Below, piece by piece: positions 22,029 through 38,951 of a stretch of DNA of 64,000 nt. The position numbers were made by a program, and so were the translations under genes. Origin of the DNA: Viridibacillus arenosi (lineage in GTDB: Bacteria > Bacillota > Bacilli > Bacillales_A > Planococcaceae); contig NZ_MSPW01000002.1 of NCBI RefSeq assembly GCF_001955655.1, forward strand, positions 248,001 to 312,000. The letters are read 5' to 3'. The notes under the pieces are model-generated. The model searched no databases and was not told the DNA's origin. It saw only the letters and a program-made list of their open reading frames with translations. Position 1 is the first letter of the stretch. The number at the start of each line of letters is the position of its first letter.

Positions 22029-23324
22029 GTGTTTACAAATATAGAACAGTGCGTCGAGTTTTTAACCTCATTAAAAAAAGGTAGTAGTACATCGATTCCA
22101 TTAGAAGTCGTTACTTCATTATTACATGAGTTTGGCGACCCCCAACATACTTTTAAAACAATCCATTTAGCAGGTTCAAACGGCAAAGGCTCTACTTTAA
22201 ATGCATTAAAGGAAATATTAAAATACAGTCAAGTAGAAAAAGTAGGCTGCTTTGTTTCTCCACACTTAGAGCGCATAAATGAGCGTATTACAATTAGTGA
22301 CAAGCAAATTACGGATGAGCAATTCCTGTTATACGTCAATAAGGTGTTTGCTGCAATAGATGAAAAGGACGGAGTATACCCAAGTTTTTTTGAAATTATG
22401 ACAATTGTTGCTTTCCTCTATTTTGCAGATGAGAAAGTAGATGTTGCTCTAATTGAAACAGGTATTGGTGGCAAATTAGATTCAACTAATGTGATTGATC
22501 CCGTCATTTCAATAATTACAACGATTTCTTTAGAACATACAGCGATTTTAGGTGATACTTATGATGAAATTGCTTATCAAAAGGGTGGCATTATTAAAGA
22601 AAATAGACCTGTAGTGACAACGGTAGAGAATGAAGATGCAATAGAAGTTCTTCGGAAAATAGCAGAAGAGAAGCATGCACCTATAGCTATTTTTAACGAG
22701 GATTTTACGGCAACAAAAGTCACTCAAAAGGAACATACACAGATGTTTAATTACTCTAAAGGTGATTATGCCATAAATGATGTTGAATTACTTATGGCAG
22801 GTCCTCATCAAATTAACAATGCTTCATTAGCTATTACAACGGCATTATTGTTAAAAGATGCTGGATACTTTGATATTACAGAAGAAGCTATTCGAAAAGC
22901 TTTAAAAGAAGCTAAATGGGCGGGACGTTTTGAAGAGTATGGTCATCTTATCGTAATTGATGGAGCGCATAATCCTGAAGGAACAGAAGCACTAATTGCA
23001 ACATTAAAAGCGAAATATCCGACGAGGGAATACGATTTTATCTACGCCGCGCTACAGGACAAAGATCATCTAAAAAGTATTAAGATGATGGCGGAAGTGG
23101 CAGCATCTATGACATTTACGCAAATAAGTATGCCTAATGCCGCACCAGCTGCAGAATTAGCAGCATTATCACAGCACCACCATACTTATTTTGATGCAGA
23201 TTGGGAATGTGTAGTGAAACGAGCAGTTGAGGAAAAAGAGGACGAGCATGTATTGGTCATAACAGGATCTCTTTATTTTATTTCTGAAGTACGTGCATTT
23301 TTAAACAATAAAGTGAAGCAGTAA
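22029..23324 (+). CDS. folC: Folylpolyglutamate/dihydrofolate synthase, first copy
   Basis: A 431-residue Mur-ligase-fold enzyme that adds glutamate to dihydropteroate or folates. The P-loop is in GSNGKGST, the metal/ATP motif in GIGGKLDSTN, the lysine expected to be carbamylated in YQKGGIIK, and the C-domain motif in IDGAHNPEGTEAL. The N-terminal pterin-region motif SPHLERINERI is canonical. It starts with GTG behind CCAGGAG. A second homologous gene follows after 13 bases. Position after valS is that of folC in B. subtilis. Confidence 0.93.
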   Translation: MFTNIEQCVEFLTSLKKGSSTSIPLEVVTSLLHEFGDPQHTFKTIHLAGSNGKGSTLNALKEILKYSQVEKVGCFVSPHLERINERITISDKQITDEQFLLYVNKVFAAIDEKDGVYPSFFEIMTIVAFLYFADEKVDVALIETGIGGKLDSTNVIDPVISIITTISLEHTAILGDTYDEIAYQKGGIIKENRPVVTTVENEDAIEVLRKIAEEKHAPIAIFNEDFTATKVTQKEHTQMFNYSKGDYAINDVELLMAGPHQINNASLAITTALLLKDAGYFDITEEAIRKALKEAKWAGRFEEYGHLIVIDGAHNPEGTEALIATLKAKYPTREYDFIYAALQDKDHLKSIKMMAEVAASMTFTQISMPNAAPAAELAALSQHHHTYFDADWECVVKRAVEEKEDEHVLVITGSLYFISEVRAFLNNKVKQ

Positions 23325-23337
23325 ACGGGGTGCCGAC

Positions 23338-24591
23338 ATGATTCCTAAATTAGATCATTATAAAGAAAAGTGGGGTGTCCGTAGTGATGCCTCTATAAAG
23401 CCAGGGTTAACAGCTATTACTGAAGCATTGCAATTAGTAGGGAACCCACAAGAAAAATTATCCGCAGTCCATGTAGCAGGTACAAATGGCAAAGGCTCAA
23501 CAATTACTTTTATAGAACATATAAGTAAGGCTCATGGACTGTCAACCGCTACATTTATGTCTCCGTGTATTGAAGATGTACACGATCAAATTCAGCTAAA
23601 TGAACAACCCATTAAACCAGAAGAAATGGATGTAGTATTTAGTATCATGGCGGATGCGGGATTAGATGGAAAGCTAACAGATTTCGAACTGTTAACAGTA
23701 GCAGCCTTTTTAGCTTTCGAGCGCTTAGCACCTGATATTACTATTATCGAATGTGGTATGGGGGGACGCTTTGATAGTACTAATGTTGTGACGCCAATCG
23801 TGTCAGTTGTACCTAGTATTGCTATAGAGCATACAAATTTTTTAGGCTCGACTATAGAAAGTATTGCTATGCATAAAGCAGGTATTATTAAAAAACAAAG
23901 GCCTGTGGTGACAGGTGTGTTACCAACTGAAGCGATGGCTATATTTACACAAGAAGCGGAAAAACTTCGCTCACCATTACTTGTCTACAATGAAAATTTC
24001 ACCGTTACAGAGGAAAACTCGACGGAAATATACATGGCTAATGATGTACGAATCACGAACTTAACACGTACAATGCCAGGGCTGCATCAGCGTAGTAATA
24101 TGGCTCTAGCAATTACAGCATTTAATATCGTTGCACAAGTAAATGGAGTAAAAACAAATGTCGAGGCATTTCGAAATGGGATTCAAAGTGCTCAGTTAGC
24201 ATGTCGCTTTGAACAACTTGCACCGAATCTCTATATTGACGGGGCACATAATCCAGCGAGTGCTAAAAGTTTGGTCGATGCGATTCAAGAGCGATTTCCT
24301 AATGAACCCATTCACTTTATCGTGGGCATGCTTGGGGATAAGGATATACGTGGAGTTTTAGCAGAATTAGAAAAAGTAGGTACTACCTTTACTTTTGTAA
24401 ATATAGCGAATGATCGTGCGATGGCTGCTGATGAGATTATGAAAATGAGTTATGCGGAAAATAAATCGACAACATATGACATTTTGACTACTGTTCAACA
24501 AAAGTTGCTGTTGAATGAAGTAATTATCATGACTGGTTCCTTATATTTGTTAGCAAAATGGCGAAAAATATTGCATGAAACATTTAATTGA
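23338..24591 (+). CDS. FolC paralog, second copy in tandem
   Basis: A 417-residue homolog of the preceding protein with all core nucleotide motifs: GTNGKGST, GMGGRFDSTN, HKAGIIKKQRP and IDGAHNPASAKSL. It differs in the pterin-binding region, where SPHL is replaced by SPCIEDVHDQI, and the two copies are clearly divergent, so this is an old duplication rather than a recent one. The most likely explanation is split dihydrofolate synthase and folylpolyglutamate synthase activities, but which copy does what cannot be told from sequence. It is co-transcribed with the first copy (13-base gap). Confidence 0.85.
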   Translation: MIPKLDHYKEKWGVRSDASIKPGLTAITEALQLVGNPQEKLSAVHVAGTNGKGSTITFIEHISKAHGLSTATFMSPCIEDVHDQIQLNEQPIKPEEMDVVFSIMADAGLDGKLTDFELLTVAAFLAFERLAPDITIIECGMGGRFDSTNVVTPIVSVVPSIAIEHTNFLGSTIESIAMHKAGIIKKQRPVVTGVLPTEAMAIFTQEAEKLRSPLLVYNENFTVTEENSTEIYMANDVRITNLTRTMPGLHQRSNMALAITAFNIVAQVNGVKTNVEAFRNGIQSAQLACRFEQLAPNLYIDGAHNPASAKSLVDAIQERFPNEPIHFIVGMLGDKDIRGVLAELEKVGTTFTFVNIANDRAMAADEIMKMSYAENKSTTYDILTTVQQKLLLNEVIIMTGSLYLLAKWRKILHETFN

Positions 24592-24678: not shown

Positions 24679-26388
24679 GTGAATTTGTCACTAAAGTTCA
24701 GATGGGCCGTATTTATAGTATGGTTGGCAACTGTACCAATTGGTTTAAATTTGGTATACCACTATTTTCCTCCACCAACTTATATTAATTGGTCTGAGTT
24801 AATAGGTTTCATAGTATTGGCGATCATTACAGCCATTTTCCCTTTTGTTATAAACGGGGTCCCTTTATTTTTTATGCAATGGGTAAACTTAGCGGTCTTT
24901 TTGAAATATGGTTTATTTATAGAATTAATTGTATTCCAAATTGCACTGATTCCCTTTTTATATCGTGCAAAGTTACTTAAGTTAAGTCTATATCGTATAC
25001 CTTGGAATTCGATAATGTTTTTCCTCGTCTCTTTCATCAGTGGTTTACTTTTTATCTTAATTGGTGGAGAATTTGGTTCGCTTAACATTCCTCATATTGT
25101 CTTATTCGGAATGTTTTACTTATTTATGAATACATTTGTGAATCATGTATTACTGAAATTGAGCTTAATCGTTATGAAGAAAAGAGCTCCATTTCTAACA
25201 AAAGATGATTATTGGGACTATAATAGTATGCTATTTACTTTTCCTATGGGGTTAACACTATATCTACTGTCGGAATATGTGGGTCCTATATCATTTGTTT
25301 TACTTGGATTGCCATTCTTGATAGTGACTCAGATTTTAAGAATGTATAGTACATCAGAAAGAGTAAATGAATACTTATCGTTGGCTGCCCATTTTGGCCA
25401 TCAGTTAGGGGATCGCTTAACGAGTGATGAAGTTGTGGATTTATTTATGGGTAAAACAATTGAAATCATGCCTGTAGATCATGCTTACATTATCGATATA
25501 GTGAATGGTCAGCTACAATTCCTTAGATCACATGAAAATGGAGTATGTACAGCAGTTAATATCTCTCATGAAAATATTTTAAAAACACCTATCAAAGAAA
25601 TAATGAATACTGAACAAACAATTGTCTACAATCAACAGACCGAATGGATAGGGATGGGGATAGGTTTTTTACCTTTTGCTACACAAAGTATAGTAATGAT
25701 GCCAATCTCGAGAAATCAAAAAATGGTAGGAGTTTTCTTATTAGCTTCTAATAAGAAAAAGTTCTTTGAAGAATATAAAATTCGTATATTAGATATACTA
25801 TGTTCTTATTTTGCTGTTTCAGTGGAGCGGTCGCGTTACATTGAGGCGACAATAAACAAAAGTGAGCGCTGTGGTTTAACTGGGTTATATAATTACAGAT
25901 ATTTCGAAGAACAACTTACAGTTAAAATGCAACAATTAATGGACGGAGAAATACGTCAACTTTCGTTAATAATGCTTGATATTGATCATTTCAAACTTAT
26001 TAATGATACGTATGGTCATCAAAGTGGCAATAGCATTTTATGTGACTTCGCTCGTACTTTAGAGGGAGAAGTGGGAAGTAAAGGACTATTAGCTAGATTT
26101 GGTGGTGAGGAATTCGTTATTTTACTTCCCAATATGTCTAAAAGTGAGGCACTGCACTTAGCTGAAGATATTCGTATGAATGTGCAACATAAGTTATTTG
26201 AAATTGGATCCGATTTGAGTTTGAGCCATATAAAAGAACATGTCACAATCACGACAAGTGTTGGTGTCTCAACTGCTCCTGAAGATTGTGATAAACCAAT
26301 GGCATTAATACGAAACGCTGATAGGGCTTTGTATGTAGGAGCTAAACAAAAAGGGCGTAATCGAGTAGCGGAGTATCTAAAAACCTAA
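24679..26388 (+). CDS. Membrane-bound GAF-GGDEF diguanylate cyclase
   Basis: A 569-residue protein. Residues 1-225 contain about six hydrophobic segments, residues about 235-390 look like a GAF sensory domain, and the rest is a GGDEF domain with the substrate motif LDIDHFKLINDTYGHQ and the active-site loop GGEEF at 475-479. It should make c-di-GMP from two GTP. The inhibitory RxxD site normally five residues before GGEEF reads GSKG, so product inhibition at this site is probably absent. It starts with GTG behind GAGAGGTG. It is the first gene of the type IV pilus region, and the downstream PilB has MshEN-like motifs, so it may set pilus activity (inference). Confidence 0.9.
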   Translation: MNLSLKFRWAVFIVWLATVPIGLNLVYHYFPPPTYINWSELIGFIVLAIITAIFPFVINGVPLFFMQWVNLAVFLKYGLFIELIVFQIALIPFLYRAKLLKLSLYRIPWNSIMFFLVSFISGLLFILIGGEFGSLNIPHIVLFGMFYLFMNTFVNHVLLKLSLIVMKKRAPFLTKDDYWDYNSMLFTFPMGLTLYLLSEYVGPISFVLLGLPFLIVTQILRMYSTSERVNEYLSLAAHFGHQLGDRLTSDEVVDLFMGKTIEIMPVDHAYIIDIVNGQLQFLRSHENGVCTAVNISHENILKTPIKEIMNTEQTIVYNQQTEWIGMGIGFLPFATQSIVMMPISRNQKMVGVFLLASNKKKFFEEYKIRILDILCSYFAVSVERSRYIEATINKSERCGLTGLYNYRYFEEQLTVKMQQLMDGEIRQLSLIMLDIDHFKLINDTYGHQSGNSILCDFARTLEGEVGSKGLLARFGGEEFVILLPNMSKSEALHLAEDIRMNVQHKLFEIGSDLSLSHIKEHVTITTSVGVSTAPEDCDKPMALIRNADRALYVGAKQKGRNRVAEYLKT

Positions 26389-26390
26389 TT

Positions 26391-26426
26391 AATAGCTAAG
26401 AGATTCCTAGAATTCTCTTAGCTATT
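26391..26426 (+). terminator. Hairpin terminator after the diguanylate cyclase gene
   Basis: AATAGCTAAGAGA and TCTCTTAGCTATT form a 13-base perfect stem. The T run is short, so termination may be partial. Confidence 0.65.
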
Positions 26427-26533
26427 GCAACATATAATGATTAGCAGAATACATATCAGTTAAATATTTTTTACTTATGAATGCCTGCATTTCTACACTA
26501 TTTAAAAATAAGCAATGAAAACTTGAAATATAA

Positions 26534-27079
26534 AAGAGAGGATGTACTAAAATCAATCAATTTGAATTTTTAAACAAAGATCCTGGAAGTAGACAGTTAG
26601 ATAAGGTTCTTCGTGCACTCCAGAATATTGAACAGCTAACTATCACGAAGATTGATCATATTGTGATTAAAAATGATGTAGACATTTCATTAAATAATTT
26701 GTCAGGAAAAGAATTAGTAGATGGAATAACGAATCATAGTAGTGAATCAATAATTACTGATGAAAACCTGTCCTTTAATCATTCATCAGTAAATCAACAA
26801 GTAGAAGAAATTCAGTATGCAACTCCCGTGTGTTCAAATGCATCTGTAAAGTCCTCACTTAAGCCCGAATGTATAACATTTGATGCAATGCTAATCTCTC
26901 CAAATTATGACGATGTCTATGATTTTATAAAAGAAGTAGAAAGATTAGATCGTATCGTCCGTATAGACAAAGTAAACTTTTCAGTTCCAAACGGAGATCA
27001 AGTTTTAAATGGTTTGAAAGAAACCATTCAAACGACATTAAAGCTCACGACTTTTTATTGTAGGGATAAGTCTTATTAA
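26534..27079 (+). pseudogene. 5'-truncated pilO-like remnant
   Basis: The frame is open from 26534 to 27079, but its only usual start codon is a GTG at 26663 that lies inside a region already similar to PilO. Upstream of that GTG, KVLRALQNIEQLTITKIDHI parallels NVINAIEQVELVSETNVIDI of the intact PilO encoded at 37464-38174; at the C-terminus FIKEVERLDRIVRIDKVNF parallels FLKEVEVLPRIMRIDSVEY. The N-terminal membrane helix and coiled coil of PilO are missing. A ribosome-binding-like GAGAGGA (26536-26542) is followed at normal spacing by ATC (26552), which suggests a lost ATG or a rare non-canonical start. It may be a dead copy of pilO or a soluble PilO-domain protein. Confidence 0.65.
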
Positions 27080-27251
27080 TTTTAATTACTGAAGTTGGTT
27101 GTAGAATACTTTTTCTATGTGGTTAGTATTCTTTTTTAGTTGAGACGAGGAACATTTAGGTTATAGAAGATTCCTTAAATGGATTCCAAATGAGTTTTTA
27201 GTTCAAGAGACCAATAAATTTTTCTGTAGAAAATGTGCGAAAGAATAATTA

Positions 27252-27296
27252 AAAAGGCGTTTCAAAGTTAATTCTTCAACTTTGAAACGCCTTTTT
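27252..27296. terminator. Bidirectional terminator between pilO remnant and pilX
   Basis: AAAAAGGCGTTTCAAAGTT pairs with AACTTTGAAACGCCTTTTT around a short loop. A and T runs on both sides allow termination in both directions. Confidence 0.88.
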
Positions 27297-27366
27297 GTGT
27301 TTAACAATATCCTTAATTTTTTTAGTTATTTATTAAAAGAATTAATACTATTATATTACTATTATA

Positions 27367-28827
27367 TTACTCTTCTATTAAAGCTCCTTGAGATGATAAT
27401 TGTTTAGGGTCATCATAAGACGGAACTGTTTCAATAGGTATAGGGTTAGAGGAAGCATATTGAACATATGATCCACCTGAAGCAGTAAAAGATTTTGCAA
27501 TAACTGCTCCTGTAATATTTCCACTACCTGATAAAGTAACATCTGCGTTTGGTGCGAAAAATACTTTAGTAATGGCTGAAGAAGCTCCATCTAATTCAAC
27601 TTTACTTCCTCCAGAATAAATATCCCCTTGGAATCCTCCGCTACCTCCAAATTTAATATTGGCGTTTTTTGCATATAGTGATCCAAAGATCCTTTGATCA
27701 CCAGCCATGTTTATTGCATTATTTCCTTTGTAATACACTTTTAGTTTGGATATACTCCCATTGTTGTTTACTGTACTTGAAGAGTTTGTAGTTATTTTAT
27801 CTTTCACATAAATAGTTAATTTTCCAGAACCTATTATGTTTATATGTCCATTATCAATATTTAAGTGGTCTACTAAGAGGGACTTGTCTGTATTACCAAC
27901 ATTGATCGTTAATGAATAGTTACTAGATAGTATGATATTTTTAAATTTCATATTATTTGTCATATTAAGTGTGTATTTGTTAGTAAGGTAGTGATTAATT
28001 AATAAATCGCCATTTTGTATGACATTTGTCTTTTCGGAGTCATTTTTTTTGACTAGCTCATTATTAGGGTATTTCAATTGCTCTAAATTTTTAAAATCAT
28101 CCTCTGGGAAAGAAGGTAACTCGATATCAATAGGAGTGCTAAGATCTGCTTTAGGTTTATGTCCATAATACGCAGGAATATCTATACTCCCGGGATTAGA
28201 TGATTCGGTTGCAATATCTGCCCCATAAATATTAGCGCTTCCTGATAATGAGATAGTATTTTTAACATGGACTGCATATTTAGGTGTATATGTCTCGGGT
28301 GTTGGAGTCGTTTCAACAACTAAATATACAATATATTCTTGTGTTACTGTTCTTTTTTTGCCTCCAATTTCACCTGTTGATTTTATATAGTATTTGTTAG
28401 AGTCATCTTTATCTTTTGTTAATATTATTGTTGATTTCGGTTTTTTGCCAAAATGTTCTTCATAATTACTAAACTGATTGACTGTTGAGCTTGCAATATT
28501 TTGCTCAGCTTGAGTGTAAAAATAGTCTGTGAAATTAAACTTTAATTTTTCTTTAGTAGTTAAAGTTTCATAGTGATTTTTAGTGGAAATGAAAGCATCG
28601 TTTACCTTGTTATTAAGTTCTTCTCTTTTTTGTACAATACCTGCTTCTGCAATATAGTATACCGATTGATCTGTACGTTCACCTGAAGATTGCTTCATTG
28701 TTGTTGCAGTAACGCTCATCAATGAAACACCAAGTATCGACATAACAACCAGTACCATAAGGACGATAATTAGTGTATAGCCATTTTCATTTTTTAAAGT
28801 GTGGTTATGTTTATATAATTTTCTCAT
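27367..28827 (-). CDS. PilX-like type IV pilus minor component
   Basis: A 486-residue protein with a prepilin-like N-terminus: basic leader, NENG followed by YTLIIVLMVLVVMSILGVSL, then a helix with TTMKQSSGERTDQSVYYIAEAGI, a segment typical of PilX-type proteins. The Glu normally at position 5 of the mature pilin is not present (YTLII), as often seen in PilX and GspK-type tip subunits. The C-terminal half (about 190-460) has repeated short beta-strand motifs (IYGADIATESS, IFGSLYAKNANIKFGG, FQGDIYSGGSKVELDG, ITGAVIAKSF), suggesting a beta-helix. It is the last gene of the minus-strand minor-pilin operon and overlaps the gene before it by one base. Confidence 0.8.
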   Translation of the reverse strand: MRKLYKHNHTLKNENGYTLIIVLMVLVVMSILGVSLMSVTATTMKQSSGERTDQSVYYIAEAGIVQKREELNNKVNDAFISTKNHYETLTTKEKLKFNFTDYFYTQAEQNIASSTVNQFSNYEEHFGKKPKSTIILTKDKDDSNKYYIKSTGEIGGKKRTVTQEYIVYLVVETTPTPETYTPKYAVHVKNTISLSGSANIYGADIATESSNPGSIDIPAYYGHKPKADLSTPIDIELPSFPEDDFKNLEQLKYPNNELVKKNDSEKTNVIQNGDLLINHYLTNKYTLNMTNNMKFKNIILSSNYSLTINVGNTDKSLLVDHLNIDNGHINIIGSGKLTIYVKDKITTNSSSTVNNNGSISKLKVYYKGNNAINMAGDQRIFGSLYAKNANIKFGGSGGFQGDIYSGGSKVELDGASSAITKVFFAPNADVTLSGSGNITGAVIAKSFTASGGSYVQYASSNPIPIETVPSYDDPKQLSSQGALIEE

Positions 28828-29246
28828 TAGTTTCCACTCCTAACGACTATGTTTGTTTCAACAGTTTTGCCATCAAGATTTGTTATTTTTATATTCCATG
28901 AATTTTCTTTGTATTCAACCAAGAATTCTTCAATATTAGTAGCGAATGGTACACTGTTTTTCGTGATGCCATTTGTACTTTTATCGAATCTATATTCTTC
29001 ATTTTTTACTTTTATCCCATCTTTAATAGAGACAATATCAGTTGTTTTTCTCATTTCTTTTGTAATGACTTTTAAGACATATGAAACCTCATGAAGCTGC
29101 TGATTTTTATTTAATTGTTTGTCGTATTGTTTAGAACTAGACAATTGAACGTTGAATATTAAAGTAGCAACTAAAGCGGATATAACGATAACTGCGAGTG
29201 TCTCTACTAATGTAATTCCCTTTTCGTTGTTTGCTATATTCTTCAT
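28827..29246 (-). CDS. PilW/PulJ-like minor prepilin
   Basis: A 139-residue prepilin. The leader ends in NEKG and the mature helix begins ITLVETLAVIVISALVATL, with the conserved Glu at position 5. The rest is a small variable globular domain. Start 29246 was chosen for the GTGAGG ribosome binding site six bases upstream; the open frame extends to 29264. Coupled on both sides by short overlaps. Confidence 0.8.
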   Translation of the reverse strand: MKNIANNEKGITLVETLAVIVISALVATLIFNVQLSSSKQYDKQLNKNQQLHEVSYVLKVITKEMRKTTDIVSIKDGIKVKNEEYRFDKSTNGITKNSVPFATNIEEFLVEYKENSWNIKITNLDGKTVETNIVVRSGN

Positions 29247-29254
29247 TGTTTGCC

Positions 29255-29680
29255 TCACTTCCATACGAATACATTTTCCATTTGTGCTTTCGGAGTAACC
29301 TCTTTGTTCTCATAGACAGTAATAACTATGTTCGTTAAATTAGGTGCATTTGTGTTTTTTTTAAGCTTTAATTTAATAGTATTTTTAGCTTCTGTTTTAA
29401 TGAATTCAACCCCATTAGCTTCAAGCGTATAGCCTAAACTTTTTAAGGCTTTTTCTTGATTGCTCTCCTTTTTACTCACTGCATAGGCCTTTTCCATTTC
29501 TGACTGTGCGATATAAGTCGCATCTACTATATTTTCTGAGCTCTTTCCTGTTTTTGCTGTTTGGATAAAGAAGGTAAAAAATGTTATTAGTAGAATTACT
29601 AATATAACGAAAGATGCCAAAACTTCAATAAGTGTGAATCCTTTTTCATTTGAATGAAACATCTTATAGAATTTCTTCAT
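29255..29680 (-). CDS. PilV-like minor prepilin
   Basis: A 141-residue prepilin with leader ending SNEKG and mature N-terminus FTLIEVLASFVILVILLITF, with Glu at position 5. The segment IAQSEMEKAYA shortly after the helix is typical of PilV/GspI-type subunits. GAGG lies 8 bases before the ATG. First gene of the minus-strand minor-pilin operon, divergent from the VanW gene. Confidence 0.82.
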   Translation of the reverse strand: MKKFYKMFHSNEKGFTLIEVLASFVILVILLITFFTFFIQTAKTGKSSENIVDATYIAQSEMEKAYAVSKKESNQEKALKSLGYTLEANGVEFIKTEAKNTIKLKLKKNTNAPNLTNIVITVYENKEVTPKAQMENVFVWK

Positions 29681-29965
29681 TTTTAAAACCTCTTTCGTAA
29701 GATTGATGGAATATATTTTTCAACAATATGAGGTGATAGATAAAATAAAATGCAAGTGGTTCAAATAACCTGTTTTATATATTAAACTATACACTTATAT
29801 CATACCTTCTTCTGTGATATATAGCATATGTTTTCATTGATTATTCACAAAAAACATTTTAAATTGTGATAAAAGTCGTATCTTTTAGGATAATTTTTAT
29901 TTATAATCTAGTTTATAGATGAGGATATACGAATATACAAAAAAATATAATAGGAGAATTAGAAT
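29681..29965. other. Divergent intergenic region between minor-pilin and main pilus operons
   Basis: A 285-base, very AT-rich interval that must hold promoters for both pilus operons. TATAAT at 29902-29907 on the plus strand is a candidate -10 box, but no convincing -35 box accompanies it. No open reading frame or stable hairpin was noticed. Confidence 0.4.
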
Positions 29966-31282
29966 ATGAGGTTATTTACGAAATTTACAATAATTACACT
30001 GCTAGTATTCGGTTTTCTTGTTTCATTTGAATATAACGGGGATAAAGCATTAGCTGCTCCAAAAGGTTCTACTATAGGTAATGTATCTATAGAGAATTTG
30101 TCTAAGGAAGAGATGAAAAAACAGTTAAATGCAGCCGTTGATACATGGCAAAGTAGCGAAATATTGATAATGGTTGGGGAAAAAGAGATTTTATTGACCG
30201 GGGAAGATTTCAAATTCGATATAAATGCCTCTATTAGACAATATGAACTTAGTATTGAGAAACCTTGGTATGCGTTTTGGGAAAAGAAACGTATTGTACA
30301 TGAGTCTTTGATTGTAGAAGCAAATCCTACTTTAAAAGAGAAAATTGAAAACCAAACAAATTTAAAAGATGAAAATTTAATTACTCAAATTCTTGAAGCG
30401 GCATCTTATCTGAAGAGTTCTCCGATTAAGGTTGCAGTTAAAGATATATCAATCGATCAAGCTGAACGAATTTCATTTGAAACGATAGCTTTGAGTGAAA
30501 GCCAAACCGCAGAAATTTCGAAAATTGTTGCTCAATTAAATGGTTTTATAATTGAGCCGGAAAATGAAGTTTCATTTAATGAACTAATAGCCAATGCTTC
30601 TAACAATGAAAGTGTAATGACGATTGTAGCATCGGCTTTATATAGTTCAGTAGTACAAAGTAGCTTTGAAATTTTGGAAAGACATCAAGCTAATGAAATT
30701 CCAACCTATGTGAATCCAGGGTATGAAGCTGTTGTTAATCCAATATTTAAAAAAGATTTGCGATTTGTATCCCATAGTAAAGTACCAGCAAAAATTGTTG
30801 CTACAGTAAATTCAGGTGAATTAAAAATTGAACTATATTCTCTACGAGGCAATCCAAAAGTGTCAGTCTTTGAAGAGGATAAAAAAAATGTTAAGCCTCG
30901 AACTATTTATCGATATTCTTCTTATTTAGAAGAAGGAGAAAGAGAGATAGCTCAACAATCAGAATCAGGTCTACAACTAGTAATTTATCGTACAGTCACT
31001 AATGATGATGGAAATGAAAAGACAGAATTAATAAGTCAGAATTACTATGCTCCACAAAATGAAATTATTGAGCTTTCATCAAAACAAACACCGGTTGATT
31101 TGAATTCTGCAAGTGGAGAAGAAGTTTCAGAAGAATGTAATGAGGATGATACCTCAGATGTTTGCAAACCAACAACTACTAAACGAAAAAAAGCAACTAA
31201 AAGTAAAAATGGTAGTCCTGTTCCCGAAGGAAGCTACTATACCGAAACAGGGGATATTGTAACACCTGGTGATTCTAAATAA
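29966..31282 (+). CDS. Divergent VanW-family exported protein at head of pilus operon
   Basis: A 438-residue protein with an N-terminal signal peptide or anchor (about 8-22, ending near KALAAP). Residues about 190-285 resemble the VanW domain (IIEPENEVSFNEL, SALYSSVVQSSFEILERH, YVNPGYEAVVNP). The usual GGG-x-CQ stretch of VanW proteins is replaced by NNESVMTIVAS, so it is a diverged member. A small beta domain follows (about 290-370), then a low-complexity tail with two cysteines and a Lys/Thr-rich stretch. It is the first gene before pilB; an extracellular, wall-associated role in pilus passage is an inference. Ribosome binding site AGGAGA. Confidence 0.78.
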   Translation: MRLFTKFTIITLLVFGFLVSFEYNGDKALAAPKGSTIGNVSIENLSKEEMKKQLNAAVDTWQSSEILIMVGEKEILLTGEDFKFDINASIRQYELSIEKPWYAFWEKKRIVHESLIVEANPTLKEKIENQTNLKDENLITQILEAASYLKSSPIKVAVKDISIDQAERISFETIALSESQTAEISKIVAQLNGFIIEPENEVSFNELIANASNNESVMTIVASALYSSVVQSSFEILERHQANEIPTYVNPGYEAVVNPIFKKDLRFVSHSKVPAKIVATVNSGELKIELYSLRGNPKVSVFEEDKKNVKPRTIYRYSSYLEEGEREIAQQSESGLQLVIYRTVTNDDGNEKTELISQNYYAPQNEIIELSSKQTPVDLNSASGEEVSEECNEDDTSDVCKPTTTKRKKATKSKNGSPVPEGSYYTETGDIVTPGDSK

Positions 31283-31305
31283 GGTTGCAAAGAGGTGAAG
31301 GAGAA

Positions 31306-32970
31306 ATGAGTAAGGTAAAAAGAAAAAGACTCGGGGATTTATTAGTTGAAGCTAACGCAATTACTCAGGAGCAGTTAGATTATGCTCTAAAGAGTAGAAA
31401 TATAAATGAAAGACTTGGAGATTTTCTAATCAGAGAAAATTTACTAACAGAGCAATTATTAATTGAAGTACTAGAATTCCAATTAGGCGTACCTCATATT
31501 AGTATCAGTCAATATGCAATTGAACCGGAACTCATTCAACTAGTACCAAAAGAATTAGCTAAACGTTCGTTATTAATGCCTTTGACGCGTGAAAAGAATA
31601 AATTACTCATTGCTATGGCTGATCCTATGGATTATTTCGCGATAGAAGAAGTTCGTATGGTGACGGGCTGCCAAATAGAAACGAGTATTGCAACGAAGGA
31701 TGATTTATACCGTTCTATTTCTAAATACTATGATTTACAGGAGACAATGGATGCGGCGTTGAATGATTTTATCCCACTAGAAAAGGATGAAGAAGTAGAA
31801 ATTTTTGATGATGATTCTCCTATTGTTAAGTTAGTTAACCAAATTATCTCGAATGCTGTTGTTCAAAGAGCGAGTGATATTCACTTTGACCCACATGAAA
31901 CTGAACTACGTATTCGATTACGTATAGATGGTGTATTAAAAACAGAGCGTTCCCTTCCGAAACATATGCAAAATATGATCATCGCTCGTATTAAGATAAT
32001 GGGGAATTTGAATATTACAGAAAATCGTTTACCACAGGATGGGCGAATAAAGGCAAATATTAATCTTCACCCGATTGATATTCGATTATCTACGTTACCT
32101 ACAATTTATGGTGAAAAAGTTGTTATGCGTGTTTTGGATTTGAATAATTCACACGGAGATATTCGAAAGCTTGGGTTTTCAGATAATAACTTAGTGCATT
32201 TTAAAAAAATAATTTCTAAACCGAATGGAATCGTACTTATTACAGGTCCAACGGGTTCCGGTAAATCTTCTACATTATCTGCGACATTACATCATCTAAA
32301 TGGTGAAGATGTCAATATCGTGACAGTTGAGGATCCAGTTGAATATCAAATGGATGGTGTAAATCAAATTCAAGTTCGTGAAGAAATAGGATTGACGTTT
32401 GCTACTGGTTTAAGATCTATTTTACGTCAAGATCCAGACATCGTCATGATAGGTGAAATCCGAGATTTAGAAACAGCGCAAATTGCGACTCGTGCATCTC
32501 TAACTGGGCACCTAGTATTAAGTACATTACATACGAATAGTGCGGTTGAATCTATTTCTAGATTGATTGATATGGGGATTGAGCCGTTTTTAATTTCATC
32601 ATCAGTTGTCGGAGTAGTGGCGCAGCGTCTTGTTAGACGAGTCTGCCGTGATTGTGGTGAGTATCATGACTTATCTATACAGGAACAGGAGATTTTTGTG
32701 AAACATAATGTCCACGTTGAAAAAGTAAAGCGTGGTAAAGGATGCCCGTCATGCAATAAGACGGGATATAGAGGGCGACTTGCAATTCATGAAATACTCG
32801 TAGTCGATGATTATATAAAAGAATTGATACTAAATAAAGCAGGAATTGCAACGATTAAAAAGCAAATGTATAACAAAGGCTATCGAACATTATTAGAAGA
32901 TGGACTGTTAAAGGTAGCGGAGGGTATTACAACGACAGAAGAAATATTACGTGTAGCGACTGATAACTAG
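31306..32970 (+). CDS. pilB: Type IV pilus extension ATPase PilB, with MshEN-like N-terminus
   Basis: A 554-residue GspE/PilB ATPase that powers pilus polymerisation at the inner membrane. The N-terminus has two consecutive MshEN-like motifs: RLGDLL at 8-13 with L24/L28, and RLGDFL at 36-41 ending LEFQ (Q59), spaced as in c-di-GMP-binding domains; the first motif ends in R31 instead of Gln and the glycines are replaced. Then come Walker A GPTGSGKSS (about 314), Walker B region DPDIVMIGEIRD (about 383), His box and a four-cysteine zinc motif (CRDC about 446, CPSC about 479). Start 31306 was chosen for GAGGTG eight bases upstream. Confidence 0.95.
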   Translation: MSKVKRKRLGDLLVEANAITQEQLDYALKSRNINERLGDFLIRENLLTEQLLIEVLEFQLGVPHISISQYAIEPELIQLVPKELAKRSLLMPLTREKNKLLIAMADPMDYFAIEEVRMVTGCQIETSIATKDDLYRSISKYYDLQETMDAALNDFIPLEKDEEVEIFDDDSPIVKLVNQIISNAVVQRASDIHFDPHETELRIRLRIDGVLKTERSLPKHMQNMIIARIKIMGNLNITENRLPQDGRIKANINLHPIDIRLSTLPTIYGEKVVMRVLDLNNSHGDIRKLGFSDNNLVHFKKIISKPNGIVLITGPTGSGKSSTLSATLHHLNGEDVNIVTVEDPVEYQMDGVNQIQVREEIGLTFATGLRSILRQDPDIVMIGEIRDLETAQIATRASLTGHLVLSTLHTNSAVESISRLIDMGIEPFLISSSVVGVVAQRLVRRVCRDCGEYHDLSIQEQEIFVKHNVHVEKVKRGKGCPSCNKTGYRGRLAIHEILVVDDYIKELILNKAGIATIKKQMYNKGYRTLLEDGLLKVAEGITTTEEILRVATDN

Positions 32971-32981
32971 GATGTGAGGAA

Positions 32982-34025
32982 ATGGCAAAATCTATTATAG
33001 AATTACTAATTTATGCGGACGACAGTGACGCTTCAGATTTACATGTAACTGTAGGTGTACCTCCGCATTATCGGATTAACGGACAATTGCAACCGTATGG
33101 AGAAGAGAATCTGACACCTGATGATTTAGAGCTGATGATAAAAGAAATTCTGCCTCCGCATCGTCAGGAGGAATATGAAATAAAAGGTGAAGTTGATTTC
33201 AACTACTCACTCCCTGGAAGATGTCGGTTCCGTATGAACGCCTATCATCAGCGCAATAGCTGTACATTAGCAGCACGTAAAATTACATCTGAAATTCCAA
33301 CAATCGATCAATTAGGCATGCCGGAAGTATTGAAAAATTTATGTAGTAAACCCCAGGGGCTCATTCTTGTAACAGGACCAACAGGCTCAGGTAAATCTAC
33401 AACTTTAGCCGCAATGATTGACTATATTAACACCAATAATGCGAAACATATTATTACGCTAGAAGATCCTATTGAATATTTGCATAAACATAAAATGTCG
33501 ATTGTAAACCAACGAGAAGTAGGAACAGATACGAATAGCTTTGCAAACGGTTTACGTTCAGCTCTTCGTCAAGATCCAGATATTATTCTAGTAGGAGAAA
33601 TGCGTGATCATGAGACGATTTCAACAGCAATTACAGCTGCTGAAACAGGACATTTAGTCATGGCGACATTACATACAAGTAGTGCTCCAACGACAATTGA
33701 CCGTATTATCGACGTCTTCCCACCTCATCAGCAAAGTCAAATTCGTATTCAGCTAGCGAATGTGTTACAAGGAATTATTTCACAGCGACTGTTTAAACGA
33801 ATAGACAAGCCAGGTAGAGTAGCAGCAACAGAAATTTTAGTACATACTCCATCTGTTTCTAATTTAATAAGAAATGATAAAGTACATCAAATTCCGAATA
33901 TCATGCAAACAAATCGAGCAGTTGGCATGCATACAATTGAAAGTTCTATTCAACATCTTTTAGCGAAGAAAATAATAGATTTTGAAATTGCCAAAACGTA
34001 TTTGAATGCAGGTGAATTTGGATGA
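32982..34025 (+). CDS. pilT: Type IV pilus retraction ATPase PilT
   Basis: A 347-residue PilT, which drives pilus disassembly and twitching motility. It lacks the MshEN and zinc regions of PilB. Walker A GPTGSGKSTT, the Asp box DPIEYLH, Walker B DPDIILVGEMRD and the His box ETGHLVMATLHT are present. A C-terminal SNLIRNDKVHQIPNIMQT corresponds to the PilT retraction signature. The presence of PilT argues for a retractile pilus rather than a secretion-only pseudopilus. Overlaps pilC by 4 bases. Confidence 0.96.
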   Translation: MAKSIIELLIYADDSDASDLHVTVGVPPHYRINGQLQPYGEENLTPDDLELMIKEILPPHRQEEYEIKGEVDFNYSLPGRCRFRMNAYHQRNSCTLAARKITSEIPTIDQLGMPEVLKNLCSKPQGLILVTGPTGSGKSTTLAAMIDYINTNNAKHIITLEDPIEYLHKHKMSIVNQREVGTDTNSFANGLRSALRQDPDIILVGEMRDHETISTAITAAETGHLVMATLHTSSAPTTIDRIIDVFPPHQQSQIRIQLANVLQGIISQRLFKRIDKPGRVAATEILVHTPSVSNLIRNDKVHQIPNIMQTNRAVGMHTIESSIQHLLAKKIIDFEIAKTYLNAGEFG

Positions 34026-35227
34026 CAGTATATCGCTATAGTGGTCGGTCATCAAAGGGATCTACGGAGAAGGGAACTATTGAAGCTGGCACCAAGCAAT
34101 TAGCCGTTAAAAAATTGCGAGATCAAGGCATTAATCCTAGACAAATTGAAGAATCCAAAAGTATTTTGCACAAAGATTTATCGCTTGGTAGTGGAGTGAA
34201 AAATGAGGACTTTGTTATTTATTGTCGCCAATTTGCAACGCTGATTCGAGCAGGTATATCGATCGTAGAAGCAACACGGATTCTTAGTGCGCAAACGTCT
34301 AGTAAGGCGCTAAAAAAAGCTTTAGTTAGTGTGGAAGAGGATATACGCTCCGGTATTGCTTTTTCTGCCTCAGCAGCAAAATATCCTAAGATTTTTCCGA
34401 CGCTCTTTATCAATATGATGAAAGCTGGGGAAGCAACAGGTAATTTAGATGACACATTAGATCGAATGGCTTTTAGCTATGAGAAATCGTTTAAATTACA
34501 GAAGAAGATTCAATCGGCTATGACTTACCCGATTGTGTTAGTTATATTAATCGTTTTTGTGGCCGTTTTTATGCTGCTATGGCTTGTCCCAAGATTTACA
34601 GCGTCCTTTGCTAGTTTTGGTGCTGAACTACCAGCCATTACATTGGTTGTCCTGGCATTTAGCGATGCTTTGAAAAAATTCTGGTGGCTATTTTTACTCG
34701 TAGCTATAGTTGCAATCGGAGGATTTGCTTTTCTATTTAAGAAGAATGAAAAAATTAATTTTATGACGCACTATATCCTACTGAAAATGCCGATTTTCGG
34801 AAAAGTACTGCAAAAATCGGCTATTGCTCGTATGACTAGAACGTTATCAACCTTATTTAGTAGTTCAGTCCCCATATTAAGTGCTTTAGCTATTGTTGAG
34901 AAAATTATCGGTAACCCTGTAATAGAAGAAGTGATTAGTGAATCTAAAAGTTCATTAGAAAAAGGGAGTCCACTATCGCAGCCGTTAGAGAAAAGCTGGG
35001 TATTCCCACCACTTGTAACGCAAATGGTTGCTATCGGAGAGCAAACGGGTTCTTTAGATTATATGCTAGAAAAAATAGCGGAGTTTTACGAGGATGACGT
35101 GGATCGTACAGTCGATTCGCTGAAATCCTTAATTGAACCATTAATGATTTTGCTATTAGCAGCTATTGTTGGATTTATAGTAGCAGCCATTATGCTACCG
35201 ATGTTTAATTTATATGAACAAATCTAG
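34022..35227 (+). CDS. pilC: Type IV pilus inner-membrane platform protein PilC
   Basis: A 401-residue PilC/GspF protein. An N-terminal region (1-55) is followed by two homologous GspF domains (about 65-190 and 270-395), with three membrane helices (near 170-190, 215-240 and 370-395). The conserved motifs ATRI and GEATGNLDDTL in the first domain and GEQTGSLDYMLEKIAEFY in the second are clear. It links the ATPases to the growing pilus. Confidence 0.95.
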   Translation: MTVYRYSGRSSKGSTEKGTIEAGTKQLAVKKLRDQGINPRQIEESKSILHKDLSLGSGVKNEDFVIYCRQFATLIRAGISIVEATRILSAQTSSKALKKALVSVEEDIRSGIAFSASAAKYPKIFPTLFINMMKAGEATGNLDDTLDRMAFSYEKSFKLQKKIQSAMTYPIVLVILIVFVAVFMLLWLVPRFTASFASFGAELPAITLVVLAFSDALKKFWWLFLLVAIVAIGGFAFLFKKNEKINFMTHYILLKMPIFGKVLQKSAIARMTRTLSTLFSSSVPILSALAIVEKIIGNPVIEEVISESKSSLEKGSPLSQPLEKSWVFPPLVTQMVAIGEQTGSLDYMLEKIAEFYEDDVDRTVDSLKSLIEPLMILLLAAIVGFIVAAIMLPMFNLYEQI

Positions 35228-35242
35228 TGAATTTTTAATTGG

Positions 35243-35332
35243 AAGGAGGTGAAAGGACAAATGACAACCGAGCAAGTACAACTAACATCTAAGGATCAAC
35301 TTACATATACGAAAAAAGGAGGTTTTATCATG
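35243..35332 (+). promoter_or_regulatory. Two in-frame ribosome binding sites and starts before pilA
   Basis: AAGGAGGTGA (35243-35252), close to a perfect anti-16S match, precedes ATG at 35261. A second strong site, AAGGAGG (35316-35322), precedes ATG at 35330 in the same frame. The first start would give a 36-residue leader before the prepilin cleavage site, the second a normal 13-residue leader. Confidence 0.7.
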
Positions 35333-35770
35333 AATAAGATCAAAAAAATGATAAAAAATGAAAGAGGTATGACTTTAATCGAACTATTAGCAGTAATCGT
35401 TATTATCGCGATTATCGCACTAATCGCTATTCCTGCGATTGGGAATATTATAAATAACTCAAATGATAAAGCAATTTTAGCCGACGCTTCAAATATTCTT
35501 TCTGGAGCGAAAATTGCATTTACAGATGGAGAATGTTCAGAGAATGAATGTACAGCGGACCAGTTGAAAAGTTTTGTAACTAAAGATGGCACTGATTTAT
35601 CGGGTGTTTCTGTAAAACGTGCTGATGGTGTTTATACTGTTACGTATCCTGCATTAGCAGAAATGAAAGGGAAATTCAAAGACGAAGCTACAGATGGAAC
35701 AATTACAAGTGATAAATTAGCGAAATTAATGGGTAACAAGAAGGAAACAACTCCACCGACAGGAAATTAA
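35330..35770 (+). CDS. pilA: Major type IVa-like prepilin PilA
   Basis: A 146-residue prepilin. The leader MNKIKKMIKNERG ends at the cleavage site and the mature protein starts MTLIELLAVIVIIAIIALIA, with Glu at position 5; methionine rather than phenylalanine is residue 1. The globular domain has one cysteine pair (GECSENEC) likely to form a disulfide, and a short Pro/Thr-rich end. A longer form starting at ATG 35261 is possible. Its place after pilB-pilT-pilC, strong ribosome binding sites and a hairpin just downstream fit the main, abundant subunit. Confidence 0.9.
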   Translation: MNKIKKMIKNERGMTLIELLAVIVIIAIIALIAIPAIGNIINNSNDKAILADASNILSGAKIAFTDGECSENECTADQLKSFVTKDGTDLSGVSVKRADGVYTVTYPALAEMKGKFKDEATDGTITSDKLAKLMGNKKETTPPTGN

Positions 35771-35775
35771 AAAAG

Positions 35776-35859
35776 TACAGCAGCCTCCGCTGCTGTATTC
35801 CCTTTAATCTTTCGTTGAAGAAAGCCATAGATAGCATTTCAAATGCATTCCCGGCTTTC
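35776..35859 (+). promoter_or_regulatory. Tandem hairpins between pilA and pilM
   Basis: TACAGCAG (35776-35783) pairs with CTGCTGTA (35790-35797) around six bases. A second structure pairs GAAAGCC (35820-35826) with GGCTTTC (35853-35859) and contains an inner GCATTT/AAATGC stem. Neither has a long T run. They could attenuate read-through into pilM or protect the 3' end of pilA mRNA. Confidence 0.6.
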
Positions 35860-35901
35860 TCCACCGAAGTATTAAAGCTTTTCGATGTGGGAGGTACTCT
35901 G

Positions 35902-36876
35902 ATGATATTTAAGAAGAAAAAGCGACAACTGTCATTTATATATAATGATTATGCAATGCATATGTTAGCAGTCAGTTCAAATGATTTAGAGCAGGCTACA
36001 ATAGAAGGTATTCCTTTAGATGAAGGTATTGTGGTGGATGGTGTCATTGAAGATGAGCTTTCTTTTTTTGAGCTACTAAAGGAGCAAGTAAAAAAATATG
36101 GACTTAAAGGTCAGAATGTACGCTTTTTTGTGCCTGATAGTACAGTCATGATGAAGGTAATTGAGCATCCACAGGAATTAAAGGGAGAAGAAGCGATTAA
36201 AGAGTATGTAGAGATGGAGCTAGGACGTTCAATTCATCTACCATTTGAAGATGCACTTATTGATATTTATGATGCACAGGCTGGGGATGGAAAGGCGACT
36301 TTATTTGCTACGAGTGCAGATGAGATTCAGAAGTTGACGGGGCTATTAGCTGATGCTGGCTTATCACCTGTTGTAGCGGATATTAAAGCGATTTCTAATC
36401 TACGTTTGCTTGAAATGGTTATGCCGAATATACATAACAGCATTACGCTAATTACAGATTGGTCTATTAATGAGCTCTCAATAACAATTTATTCGCAAGG
36501 GGAAGTCGAATTTTTACGCTATCAAACGATTAATACAGAGCGTAGTAAATGGTACCCGAAACACACGGAAGATGCTTTTGATTATGCTTACAGTGATGAT
36601 GTGATGAATTATAAAACAGCATTAATGGAGCCGTTATCTGAAATTGATCGTATTTTAAACTTTTATCACTATTCTTTAAATAAAGGTGAAAAGAGCGTAG
36701 GGAATATTGTTGTTATAGGAGATTCTCCTGAGCTGCTATACATCATTGACATGCTAGAAAGTCAATTAACTTTGCCGGTACATACTTTAACAGATTCAGT
36801 GATTACTAGTAAGTTTCCTAACTTTAAGGCATCACAATCAAGTTTAATTGGACTAGCCTTAAAGGAGGTAGAGTAG
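35902..36876 (+). CDS. pilM: Type IV pilus assembly protein PilM
   Basis: A 324-residue cytoplasmic, actin/FtsA-like PilM. The stretches IVVDGVIEDELSFFELLKEQ and NVRFFVPDSTVMMKVIE match the start of PilM proteins. Start 35902 has GGAGGT just upstream; the frame is open to 35815 without a ribosome binding site. PilM binds the N-terminal peptide of PilN, which is encoded next. Confidence 0.87.
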   Translation: MIFKKKKRQLSFIYNDYAMHMLAVSSNDLEQATIEGIPLDEGIVVDGVIEDELSFFELLKEQVKKYGLKGQNVRFFVPDSTVMMKVIEHPQELKGEEAIKEYVEMELGRSIHLPFEDALIDIYDAQAGDGKATLFATSADEIQKLTGLLADAGLSPVVADIKAISNLRLLEMVMPNIHNSITLITDWSINELSITIYSQGEVEFLRYQTINTERSKWYPKHTEDAFDYAYSDDVMNYKTALMEPLSEIDRILNFYHYSLNKGEKSVGNIVVIGDSPELLYIIDMLESQLTLPVHTLTDSVITSKFPNFKASQSSLIGLALKEVE

Positions 36877-36879
36877 GGT

Positions 36880-37467
36880 ATGATTCCAGATATTAATCTC
36901 TTACCTAAGATAGAAAGAAAAAAGACAAATAGTCTACTTTTTTGGTTATTTGTAGCTGTCATTTGCTTGTTATTTATTGCTATTGGGGTGAAATATTTCT
37001 CGTTAAAAAGTGAGGTTGAATCTTTGTCCTCAGAGCAACAAGGTTTATCAACAAAAATTGATCGTTATAAAGACCAAATCGCGAATATTCAGAAGCAATC
37101 ACAAGGTACACTTGCACAATCTGTACAATTTGTTGAATCGGTTTCATACCCGGTTGCACCGATTATTGATAGTTTAGAAGGTCATCTTGAATCGTACGAA
37201 AAGCTTACGGATATTAAATACGGTCCTGAAGGTATTGTAGTGACAATCGACTTTGAAACGCTTAACGACGTATCTCTGTATGTTCAAAAATTATTAATGG
37301 ATCATTTATATACAGATGTCCAAATTGAAAAAGTAACTTCTTTTAAACCAGAAAAAAACGAGTATAATGACGCCGATTCAGATGAGGATTTAGTACCCCG
37401 CTATACAGCAGAGTTTAAATTGGCTATTAGTAATTCAGATTTACTTGCGGAGGTAGAACGTCCATGA
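36880..37467 (+). CDS. pilN: Type IV pilus assembly protein PilN
   Basis: A 195-residue bitopic membrane protein. The N-terminal peptide MIPDINLLPK is the conserved PilM-docking motif. One membrane helix (about 20-42) is followed by a coiled coil (about 43-75) and an external ferredoxin-like domain. It forms the PilM-N-O alignment complex. Overlaps pilO by 4 bases. Confidence 0.9.
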   Translation: MIPDINLLPKIERKKTNSLLFWLFVAVICLLFIAIGVKYFSLKSEVESLSSEQQGLSTKIDRYKDQIANIQKQSQGTLAQSVQFVESVSYPVAPIIDSLEGHLESYEKLTDIKYGPEGIVVTIDFETLNDVSLYVQKLLMDHLYTDVQIEKVTSFKPEKNEYNDADSDEDLVPRYTAEFKLAISNSDLLAEVERP

Positions 37468-38174
37468 ATTCTTTAGGGAGTAATGAGAAATCAGCATATA
37501 TTCTTATCGGAATACTTGTTATCACAATCTTAGGCGCTATCTTTTATTACGCGGTATATCCAAAAATGGAGGAAAGTAATTCATTGAAATATCAAATCGC
37601 GGATATGAAGAAAGAGGCAGCCACACTAGATGAACAGCTTGATATAATGAAGGAAGAACAAAAAGCTAATGAGAAAAGTATGAGTGAATTAAAAACGAAA
37701 GTACCGTTAGATCGTGATTTAAGTAATGTGATTAATGCTATTGAACAAGTGGAATTAGTAAGTGAAACGAATGTAATTGATATTACATTTAATAATTATG
37801 ATGAGACAGTTAAAGAGACAATCCAAATGGAAGAAACCTCAACAAATAAGGAGCCACAAAATCAAGCAAGTAGTGATAATGTGAATGGTAATGATGAGAG
37901 CGAAACGTCGGTTACTCCTGTTTCGCCGATTGCATCTAGTAGTCTACCAGAAAAATTAAAGCTAATATCAATGACGCTATCAATTAATGCAAAGGATAAA
38001 AAAGAAATAAGAGCTTTTTTAAAGGAAGTTGAAGTATTGCCTCGTATTATGCGTATTGACTCTGTTGAGTACGAAATACCAAATACAGATGTACAAAGTT
38101 CAGGGGCAGATGAAGCGCATGAAGCTACCGTTCAACTCACAGTATTCTACTACGAGGGTTCAGTAGAAGAATAA
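37464..38174 (+). CDS. pilO: Type IV pilus assembly protein PilO
   Basis: A 236-residue protein with one membrane helix (about 12-33), a coiled coil (about 35-80) and an external domain. A Ser/Asn/Glu-rich insert (about 125-155) splits the external part. The C-terminal LKEVEVLPRIMRIDSVEYEI is the segment matched by the remnant at 26534-27079. It pairs with PilN outside the membrane. Confidence 0.88.
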   Translation: MNSLGSNEKSAYILIGILVITILGAIFYYAVYPKMEESNSLKYQIADMKKEAATLDEQLDIMKEEQKANEKSMSELKTKVPLDRDLSNVINAIEQVELVSETNVIDITFNNYDETVKETIQMEETSTNKEPQNQASSDNVNGNDESETSVTPVSPIASSSLPEKLKLISMTLSINAKDKKEIRAFLKEVEVLPRIMRIDSVEYEIPNTDVQSSGADEAHEATVQLTVFYYEGSVEE

Positions 38175-38195
38175 ACTATAATAAGAGGGATATAA

Positions 38196-38951
38196 ATGAT
38201 AATTGTTTATGCACTATTCTTTTTTATATTTGGTCTAGTTTTTGGTTCGTTTTTTAATGTAGTTGGGTTAAGAGTACCTAAGGGAGAGTCTATTGTTAGC
38301 CCGCCTTCACATTGTACAAATTGTCAAAGGCGGTTAACAACTAGGGACTTAGTACCTGTGTTATCTTTTTTGTTTTTGAAGGGTAAATGTAGAAAGTGTG
38401 AAACGAAAATTCATTGGGTATATCCGTTAACGGAATTTGTGACAGCTTTTCTTTTTACATTGGCGTATTTGGAATTGGGATTAAATCCTGAATTGATTAT
38501 TGCACTATTATTTATTTCCTTATTAATCATTATTACAGTTTCAGATATTGCGTATATGTTGATTCCTAATAAGATTTTATTGGTTTTTGGAGTGCTCTTA
38601 GTGGTTGGACGTTTTTTCATCCAGTCGAACCCATGGTGGGACAGTATTGTTGGGGCATTTGGTGGATTTTTAATATTATTACTCGTTGCGATCCTGTCGA
38701 AAGGTGGGATAGGGGGCGGGGATATTAAATTATTCTTCATCATTGGACTAGTACTTGGTATTTATTCGACATTACTTGCGTTATTTTTGGCGTCGGTTAT
38801 TGGTTTAATAGTAGGCGTTGTACTATTAAACTACCGAAAGCAAGGGCGTAAAACTCCGATTCCTTTTGGTCCATCGATTGCATTGGCAAGTATCATTACT
38901 TATTTTTATGGCGAACAAATTCTCGAATGGTATATGAATTTGTTATTTTAA
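38196..38951 (+). CDS. pilD: Prepilin peptidase PilD/ComC
   Basis: A 251-residue polytopic type 4 prepilin peptidase. The cytoplasmic zinc loop (CTNC and CRKC) and the two catalytic aspartate regions (VSDIAYMLIPN and GGGDIKLFF) are intact. It should cleave and methylate the four prepilins here and, as the only such gene in view at the comC position, perhaps the competence pseudopilins encoded elsewhere (inference). Last gene of the pilus operon; a terminator follows. Confidence 0.95.
   Translation: MIIVYALFFFIFGLVFGSFFNVVGLRVPKGESIVSPPSHCTNCQRRLTTRDLVPVLSFLFLKGKCRKCETKIHWVYPLTEFVTAFLFTLAYLELGLNPELIIALLFISLLIIITVSDIAYMLIPNKILLVFGVLLVVGRFFIQSNPWWDSIVGAFGGFLILLLVAILSKGGIGGGDIKLFFIIGLVLGIYSTLLALFLASVIGLIVGVVLLNYRKQGRKTPIPFGPSIALASIITYFYGEQILEWYMNLLF

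Follow-up and report, generated by a model that had tools for sequence, protein, structure and literature searches.

The locus described here raised the question of whether a type IV pilus extension motor responds to c-di-GMP and, if so, whether the nucleotide is supplied by the diguanylate cyclase encoded nearby. Both genes lie in the window (the whole stretch of DNA analysed, 64,000 nucleotides from Viridibacillus arenosi), which belongs to a draft genome of 4.43 Mb. The host is a relative of Rummeliibacillus, and among named relatives its PilB was closest to that of Rummeliibacillus stabekisii (82% identity). From valS, which carries a T-box leader, the region ran through a pair of folC-like genes and the cyclase gene to a PilO-like fragment; three minor-pilin genes of opposite orientation and a VanW-G5 gene came next, followed by pilB-T-C-A-M-N-O-D, a SPOR-like gene, maf, radC and mreB (Table 1). 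It has the look of a complete type IV pilus locus of the retractable kind. Part of these names rests on gene order: pilN, pilO and pilD were identified by gene order and sequence, and pilM scored 56.5 bits against TIGR01175, under the cut-off.

Table 1. Features of the cyclase-pil region, with positions in the window.
Feature	Position	Strand	Evidence
GAF-GGDEF diguanylate cyclase, membrane; GGEEF at residues 475-479; no RxxD	24679..26388	+	PF00990 2.8e-39
PilO C-terminal fragment, partial pilO duplicate	26663..27079	+	PF04350 22.6 bits; 44% identity over 82 aa to PilO 37464-38174
Three minor-pilin genes: one PilX-like with DUF7305, two with N-methylation motifs	27367..29680	-	PF14341 4.3e-09; PF07963 4.2e-05, 4.4e-07
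VanW-G5 protein, directly 5' of pilB	29966..31282	+	PF04294 3.7e-11, PF07501 5.7e-08
PilB extension ATPase, N-terminal MshEN domain	31306..32970	+	PF00437 460.9 bits, PF05157 74.4 bits
PilB motif I, residues 8-31: RLGDLLVEANAITQEQLDYALKSR; last residue Arg, not Gln	31327..31398	+	
PilB motif II, residues 36-59: RLGDFLIRENLLTEQLLIEVLEFQ; 4-residue linker before motif II	31411..31482	+	
pilT, pilC, pilA-like pilin, pilM, pilN, pilO, pilD	32982..38951	+	T2SSE, T2SSF, N_methyl matches

The pilB reading frame was listed from a TTG codon (31285-32970), and its start is almost certainly the ATG at 31306, because a strong ribosome site (AGGTGAAGGAGAA) stands 5' of this codon; from this start the numbering used previously, RLGDLL at residues 8-13 and RLGDFL at residues 36-41, follows. 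PilB was identified as the extension ATPase by its T2SSE domain, its Walker A motif (GPTGSGKS), its zinc tetracysteine (CxxC...CxxC) and its position in the pil operon, together with pilT, pilC, pilM, pilN and pilO; against TIGR02538, the equivalog model for type IVa PilB, it scored 604.7 bits, under the cut-off of 675.65. The N-terminal domain was over both curated cut-offs (23.1 bits for PF05157; 53.3 bits with a cut-off of 38 for NF053729), and PilB was the sole match in the genome to the NCBIfam model of the MshE-type c-di-GMP motif. The two RLGD motifs of the preliminary description were confirmed; their spacing was indeed of the tandem type, but not exactly that of MshE (28 residues apart here, 29 in MshE).

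Each 24-residue motif of MshE contacts the ligand through Arg1, Leu2, the amides of Gly3 and residue 4, Leu17, Leu21 and Gln24, with Gly10 serving for a turn only (PMC5013675). PilB retained all of these contact positions but one: in place of Gln24 of motif I it has Arg31. Set against the canonical consensus (Wang 2016), R8, L9, G10, L24 and L28 of motif I and R36, L37, G38, L52, L56 and Gln59 of motif II were present, but the terminal Gln of motif I (Arg31 instead) and the 5-residue linker (4 residues here) deviated, and PilB was therefore classed as an MshEN variant, not as a canonical member. The glycines said earlier to be replaced in both motifs turned out to be the turn glycines at position 10, each Asn in PilB, whereas the RLG glycines were intact. 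Among substitutes, Asn is accepted most readily in turns of the glycine type.

Among MshE mutants, only the RLG glycines proved essential: changes of Gly11 or Gly40 abolish c-di-GMP binding, changes at Arg9, Asp12 or Gln32 alter the affinity about fivefold or less, and the search pattern of the MshEN authors itself permitted K or R at the last motif position (PMC5013675). Binding also persists in the Q190E and Q218E variants of Thermus thermophilus PilF (0.95 and 0.46 uM respectively; PMC11731258). The preliminary description had counted the Arg at the end of motif I against binding; the residue is there, but in view of these mutants and of the Lys or Arg found throughout the lineage it loses most of its force as a sign against binding. 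A basic residue 31 could pair with the phosphate usually held by Gln.

This lineage pattern was seen in an alignment of PilBs from 110 loci, in which the conservation figures were taken from 55 Bacillales PilBs. Position 24 of motif I (residue 31) was Lys in 53 of them, Arg in 2 and Gln in none, and the linker between the motifs usually had 4 residues. Gly3 of both motifs, Leu21 of motif I, and Leu17, Leu21 and Gln24 of motif II were invariant (for motif II these are G38, L52, L56 and Q59 of PilB). The mean entropy of the contact positions was 0.18 bit vs. 1.34 for the remaining subdomain, and none of 20,000 random position sets was equally conserved, a figure which treats relatives as independent and indicates the strength of the effect, not a probability. 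In the PilB tree, the Lys/Arg form fitted a single clade of 56 sequences (SH-aLRT 99), and the alignment rows inspected outside this clade retained Gln, which marks the deviation as a variant fixed in this lineage and not as decay. Judged from this tree, the basic residue and the linker shorter by one residue apparently had a single origin.

The AlphaFold2 model of the N-domain, built from 55 sequences, reached a pLDDT of 93.3 and showed the MshEN fold, a four-helix N-subdomain followed by an alpha/beta C-subdomain. Modelling of the PilB N-terminus against MshEN structures had been proposed earlier as a check, and the top PDB match was c-di-GMP-bound MshE (5HTL_B, Z 18.5, 2.0 A over 137 residues), with lower scores for XpsE (Z 16.4) and the PilF domains (about 15). 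This fold is common to non-binders (XpsE, PilF GSPII-A), and so the structural match supports kinship, not binding. Taken together, the kept contacts, the MshE-like model and the sole match to the motif model make PilB very probably a c-di-GMP-responsive extension motor, and control of the pilus by c-di-GMP is likely.

Pilus motors under direct control of c-di-GMP have been documented in Vibrio, Myxococcus, Thermus and Clostridium. Vibrio cholerae MshE (5HTL), the best structural match of the model, shares with PilB the role of extension ATPase, the tandem RLG motifs and the leucine triads; PilB differs from it in the Arg of motif I (not Gln), the linker of 4 residues (not 5) and Asn turn residues (not Gly). 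Clostridium perfringens PilB2 resembles PilB as a Gram-positive, pil-type extension ATPase with an N-terminal c-di-GMP-binding domain, but its motif is described as nearly identical to that of MshE (PMC11656802, via review), and the aligned Clostridium PilBs retained Gln in motif I. Thermus thermophilus PilF is a PilB-like ATPase with MshEN-type domains, three of them in tandem, unlike the single one here. In its GSPII-B, too, the strict consensus is not followed (Lys and Leu as first residues; motif II shortened by one residue), and this domain still binds at 6 nM. GSPII-A, whose motif II is degenerate and which has His at the Gln position, shows no binding; motif II is intact in the PilB described here (PMC11731258). 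The system is thus of a known kind, an MshEN pilus ATPase, and what appears to be new is the Bacillales site with Lys/Arg31 and a short linker, a putative binder. Searches of the open-access literature found no report of c-di-GMP control of Bacillales pil systems, and searches of the literature found no study of c-di-GMP binding by an MshEN domain with Lys or Arg at the end of motif I and a 4-residue linker.

The neighbouring cyclase (569 aa, GTG start) had a hydrophobic N-terminus, a weak GAF match (PF13185, E 1e-05, slightly under the cut-off) and a clear GGDEF domain (PF00990, E 2.8e-39) with a GGEEF signature and DIDHFKLIND. GSKG stood at the place of RxxD, so that the GAF-GGEEF architecture and the missing inhibitory site reported before were both found again, the GAF part by a weak match. 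The DxDxFKxxND and GGEEF motifs were retained in 35 of 35 cyclase sequences compared, none of which had the RxxD product-inhibition site. This site is optional, and diguanylate cyclase activity is possible without it. By its sequence, the cyclase appears catalytically intact.

Whether this cyclase belongs to the pilus was examined in a family sample of 37 genomes including the host, among which PilB was found in 28 and a cyclase orthologue in 19. The order valS-folC-DGC-pil-maf-radC was conserved, and the cyclase, usually 4-6 kb 5' of pilB, was present in 16 of the 19 family genomes whose pil genes lie in the valS/folC stretch but in only 3 of the 18 others (1 of 9 with pil elsewhere and 2 of 9 without pil; Fisher p 5e-5, uncorrected for ancestry). 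The 68 Bacillota PilB loci comprised 28 with the cyclase, 12 with folC and no cyclase, and 28 with pil elsewhere or a flank too short to see. Mapped on the PilB tree, the locus state required about 15 changes, and well-supported branches forced at least 9 of these. The association of cyclase and pil is old and repeated, yet loose. The cyclase, placed beside PilB in the preliminary description, is a conserved neighbour in many Bacillales but not an immediate one: 4.9 kb separate the two genes, occupied by the PilO-like fragment, the three opposite-strand minor-pilin genes and the VanW-G5 gene, and in the window the cyclase lies outside the pilB transcription unit, with genes of opposite orientation between the two. 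The minor-pilin genes stay adjacent to pilB in relatives.

All 28 loci with a neighbouring cyclase had an intact PilB site, as did 34 of the 37 without one, and three genomes with pil and no cyclase of the neighbouring type (G004, G009, G027) retained it. Conversely, two pil-less genomes, G023 (two copies) and G035, retained intact cyclases. In G035, a remnant of true pilO (7830-8069 of locus L152) was found between the cyclase and pilD, and the pilus genes were therefore deleted there. Other sources of the nucleotide were plentiful: the host genome encoded 16 GGDEF domains (15 besides the neighbouring cyclase), 7 EAL domains and 2 PilZ domains, both of the latter on contigs other than that of the window, and a GGDEF domain was present in all 61 genomes sampled. 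With 16 GGDEF and 7 EAL domains, a shared pool can feed PilB. No c-di-GMP riboswitch in the window was over the gathering score, at which a T-box and an L21 leader were the only hits.

The reading we prefer, with a probability of about 0.65, is that the MshEN domain of PilB senses c-di-GMP and thereby favours extension, the ligand coming mainly from the shared pool of the cell with a contribution from the neighbouring cyclase. A single c-di-GMP would span both RLGD motifs, its guanines read by backbone amides (of Asp and of the RLG glycine) and sandwiched by the leucine triads and the leading Arg. Gln59 would hold one phosphate/ribose edge; the other may be held by residue 31, Arg here and Lys in most relatives, replacing the usual Gln. 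Binding would presumably favour extension over PilT-driven retraction. In V. cholerae, c-di-GMP binding to MshE favours extension (PMC7096442), and weakened binding in T. thermophilus PilF leads to less twitching and adhesion (PMC11731258). The ATPase rate of C. perfringens PilB2 is unchanged by c-di-GMP binding (PMC11656802, via review), so the output of PilB may be conformational. The cyclase, an old member of a folC-pil chromosomal island, would probably link a membrane/GAF signal to surface life, but is neither the sole nor an obligatory source of c-di-GMP.

The earlier inference that local c-di-GMP from this cyclase gates the pilus was only partly sustained: the c-di-GMP site in PilB stood, given the kept contacts and the predicted fold, whereas gating by this cyclase did not, the site being as intact without the neighbour, the cyclase outliving the pilus genes in two genomes, 15 other GGDEF domains being encoded and the two genes lying in separate transcription units. 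As a full explanation, a pair in which the cyclase builds a local pool near the pilus base and specifically gates PilB is doubtful; such gating is possible, and the synteny (16 of 19 vs. 3 of 18), two genomes with cyclase, minor pilins, vanW and pilB all on the same strand (G006, G024) and the absence of the RxxD feedback site from all 35 cyclases are suggestive. Beyond the points just listed, the convergent genes between cyclase and pilB in the window and the roughly 15 changes of locus state argue against it. A stronger version, in which an entire Bacillales branch would combine a remodelled MshEN site (phosphate-binding Lys/Arg, short linker) with a resident, feedback-free membrane cyclase of the same chromosomal island, giving Gram-positive rods a dedicated pilus c-di-GMP loop, seems improbable. 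Somewhat easier to entertain, though still on the unlikely side, is that the cyclase has no connection with the pilus, being a housekeeping gene linked to folC and held in place by general gene-order conservation: the order valS-folC-maf-radC-mreB is conserved in itself and the cyclase outlasts pil in G023 and G035, but plain gene-order conservation does not predict that the cyclase is mostly absent altogether (present in 1 of 9) where pil lies elsewhere.

The signal might also run the other way, with the cyclase reading the state of the pilus or surface and reporting it to the whole cell. Pseudomonas aeruginosa SadC-PilO, given as a model in a review (PMC9210963), offers a precedent for a membrane diguanylate cyclase tied to the type IV pilus machinery, and differs from the reading preferred here in that the signal runs from pilus to cyclase. 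A membrane cyclase within a pil island would suit this scheme, but its persistence in two genomes after pilus loss and a PilO fragment behind the cyclase in only 2 of 3 congeners leave it with little probability. Decay of the domain, such that the altered motif I no longer binds and the domain has only a structural role, linking to PilM and the platform, is hardly more convincing. Motif I does break the strict consensus, the linker is shortened, the fold is shared with the non-binders XpsE and PilF GSPII-A, and GSPII-A likewise departs from Gln at the motif I position (His33, PMC11731258); however, XpsE, a known non-binder, lost many contacts together, whereas here the others are fixed and the replacement is strictly basic. 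A degenerate non-binding motif was thus set aside as the leading reading, the remaining contacts being fixed and the odd residue itself conserved. Sensing of c-di-GMP by PilB, mainly from the shared pool, would have wider meaning: a conserved site over a large Bacillales branch, together with the contrast between loci with and without the cyclase, would show the wiring of a second-messenger input to pili, and binding by the Lys/Arg variant would call for a wider motif in the prediction of MshEN receptors.

Some further variation was seen around the locus. The cyclase gene was duplicated in tandem at the locus in three genomes (G005, G022, G023). In a Lysinibacillus/Ureibacillus-like branch (eight loci) pil lay away from folC, and the cyclase orthologue was missing except in G014, where it was on another contig. 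The PilO C-terminal fragment directly after the cyclase was present in congener G002 and not seen in congener G001. The two tandem folC-like genes 5' of the cyclase (22029-24591 in the window) corresponded to a single gene in several relatives, and a VanW-G5 gene directly 5' of pilB was also present in most Bacillales pil loci examined.
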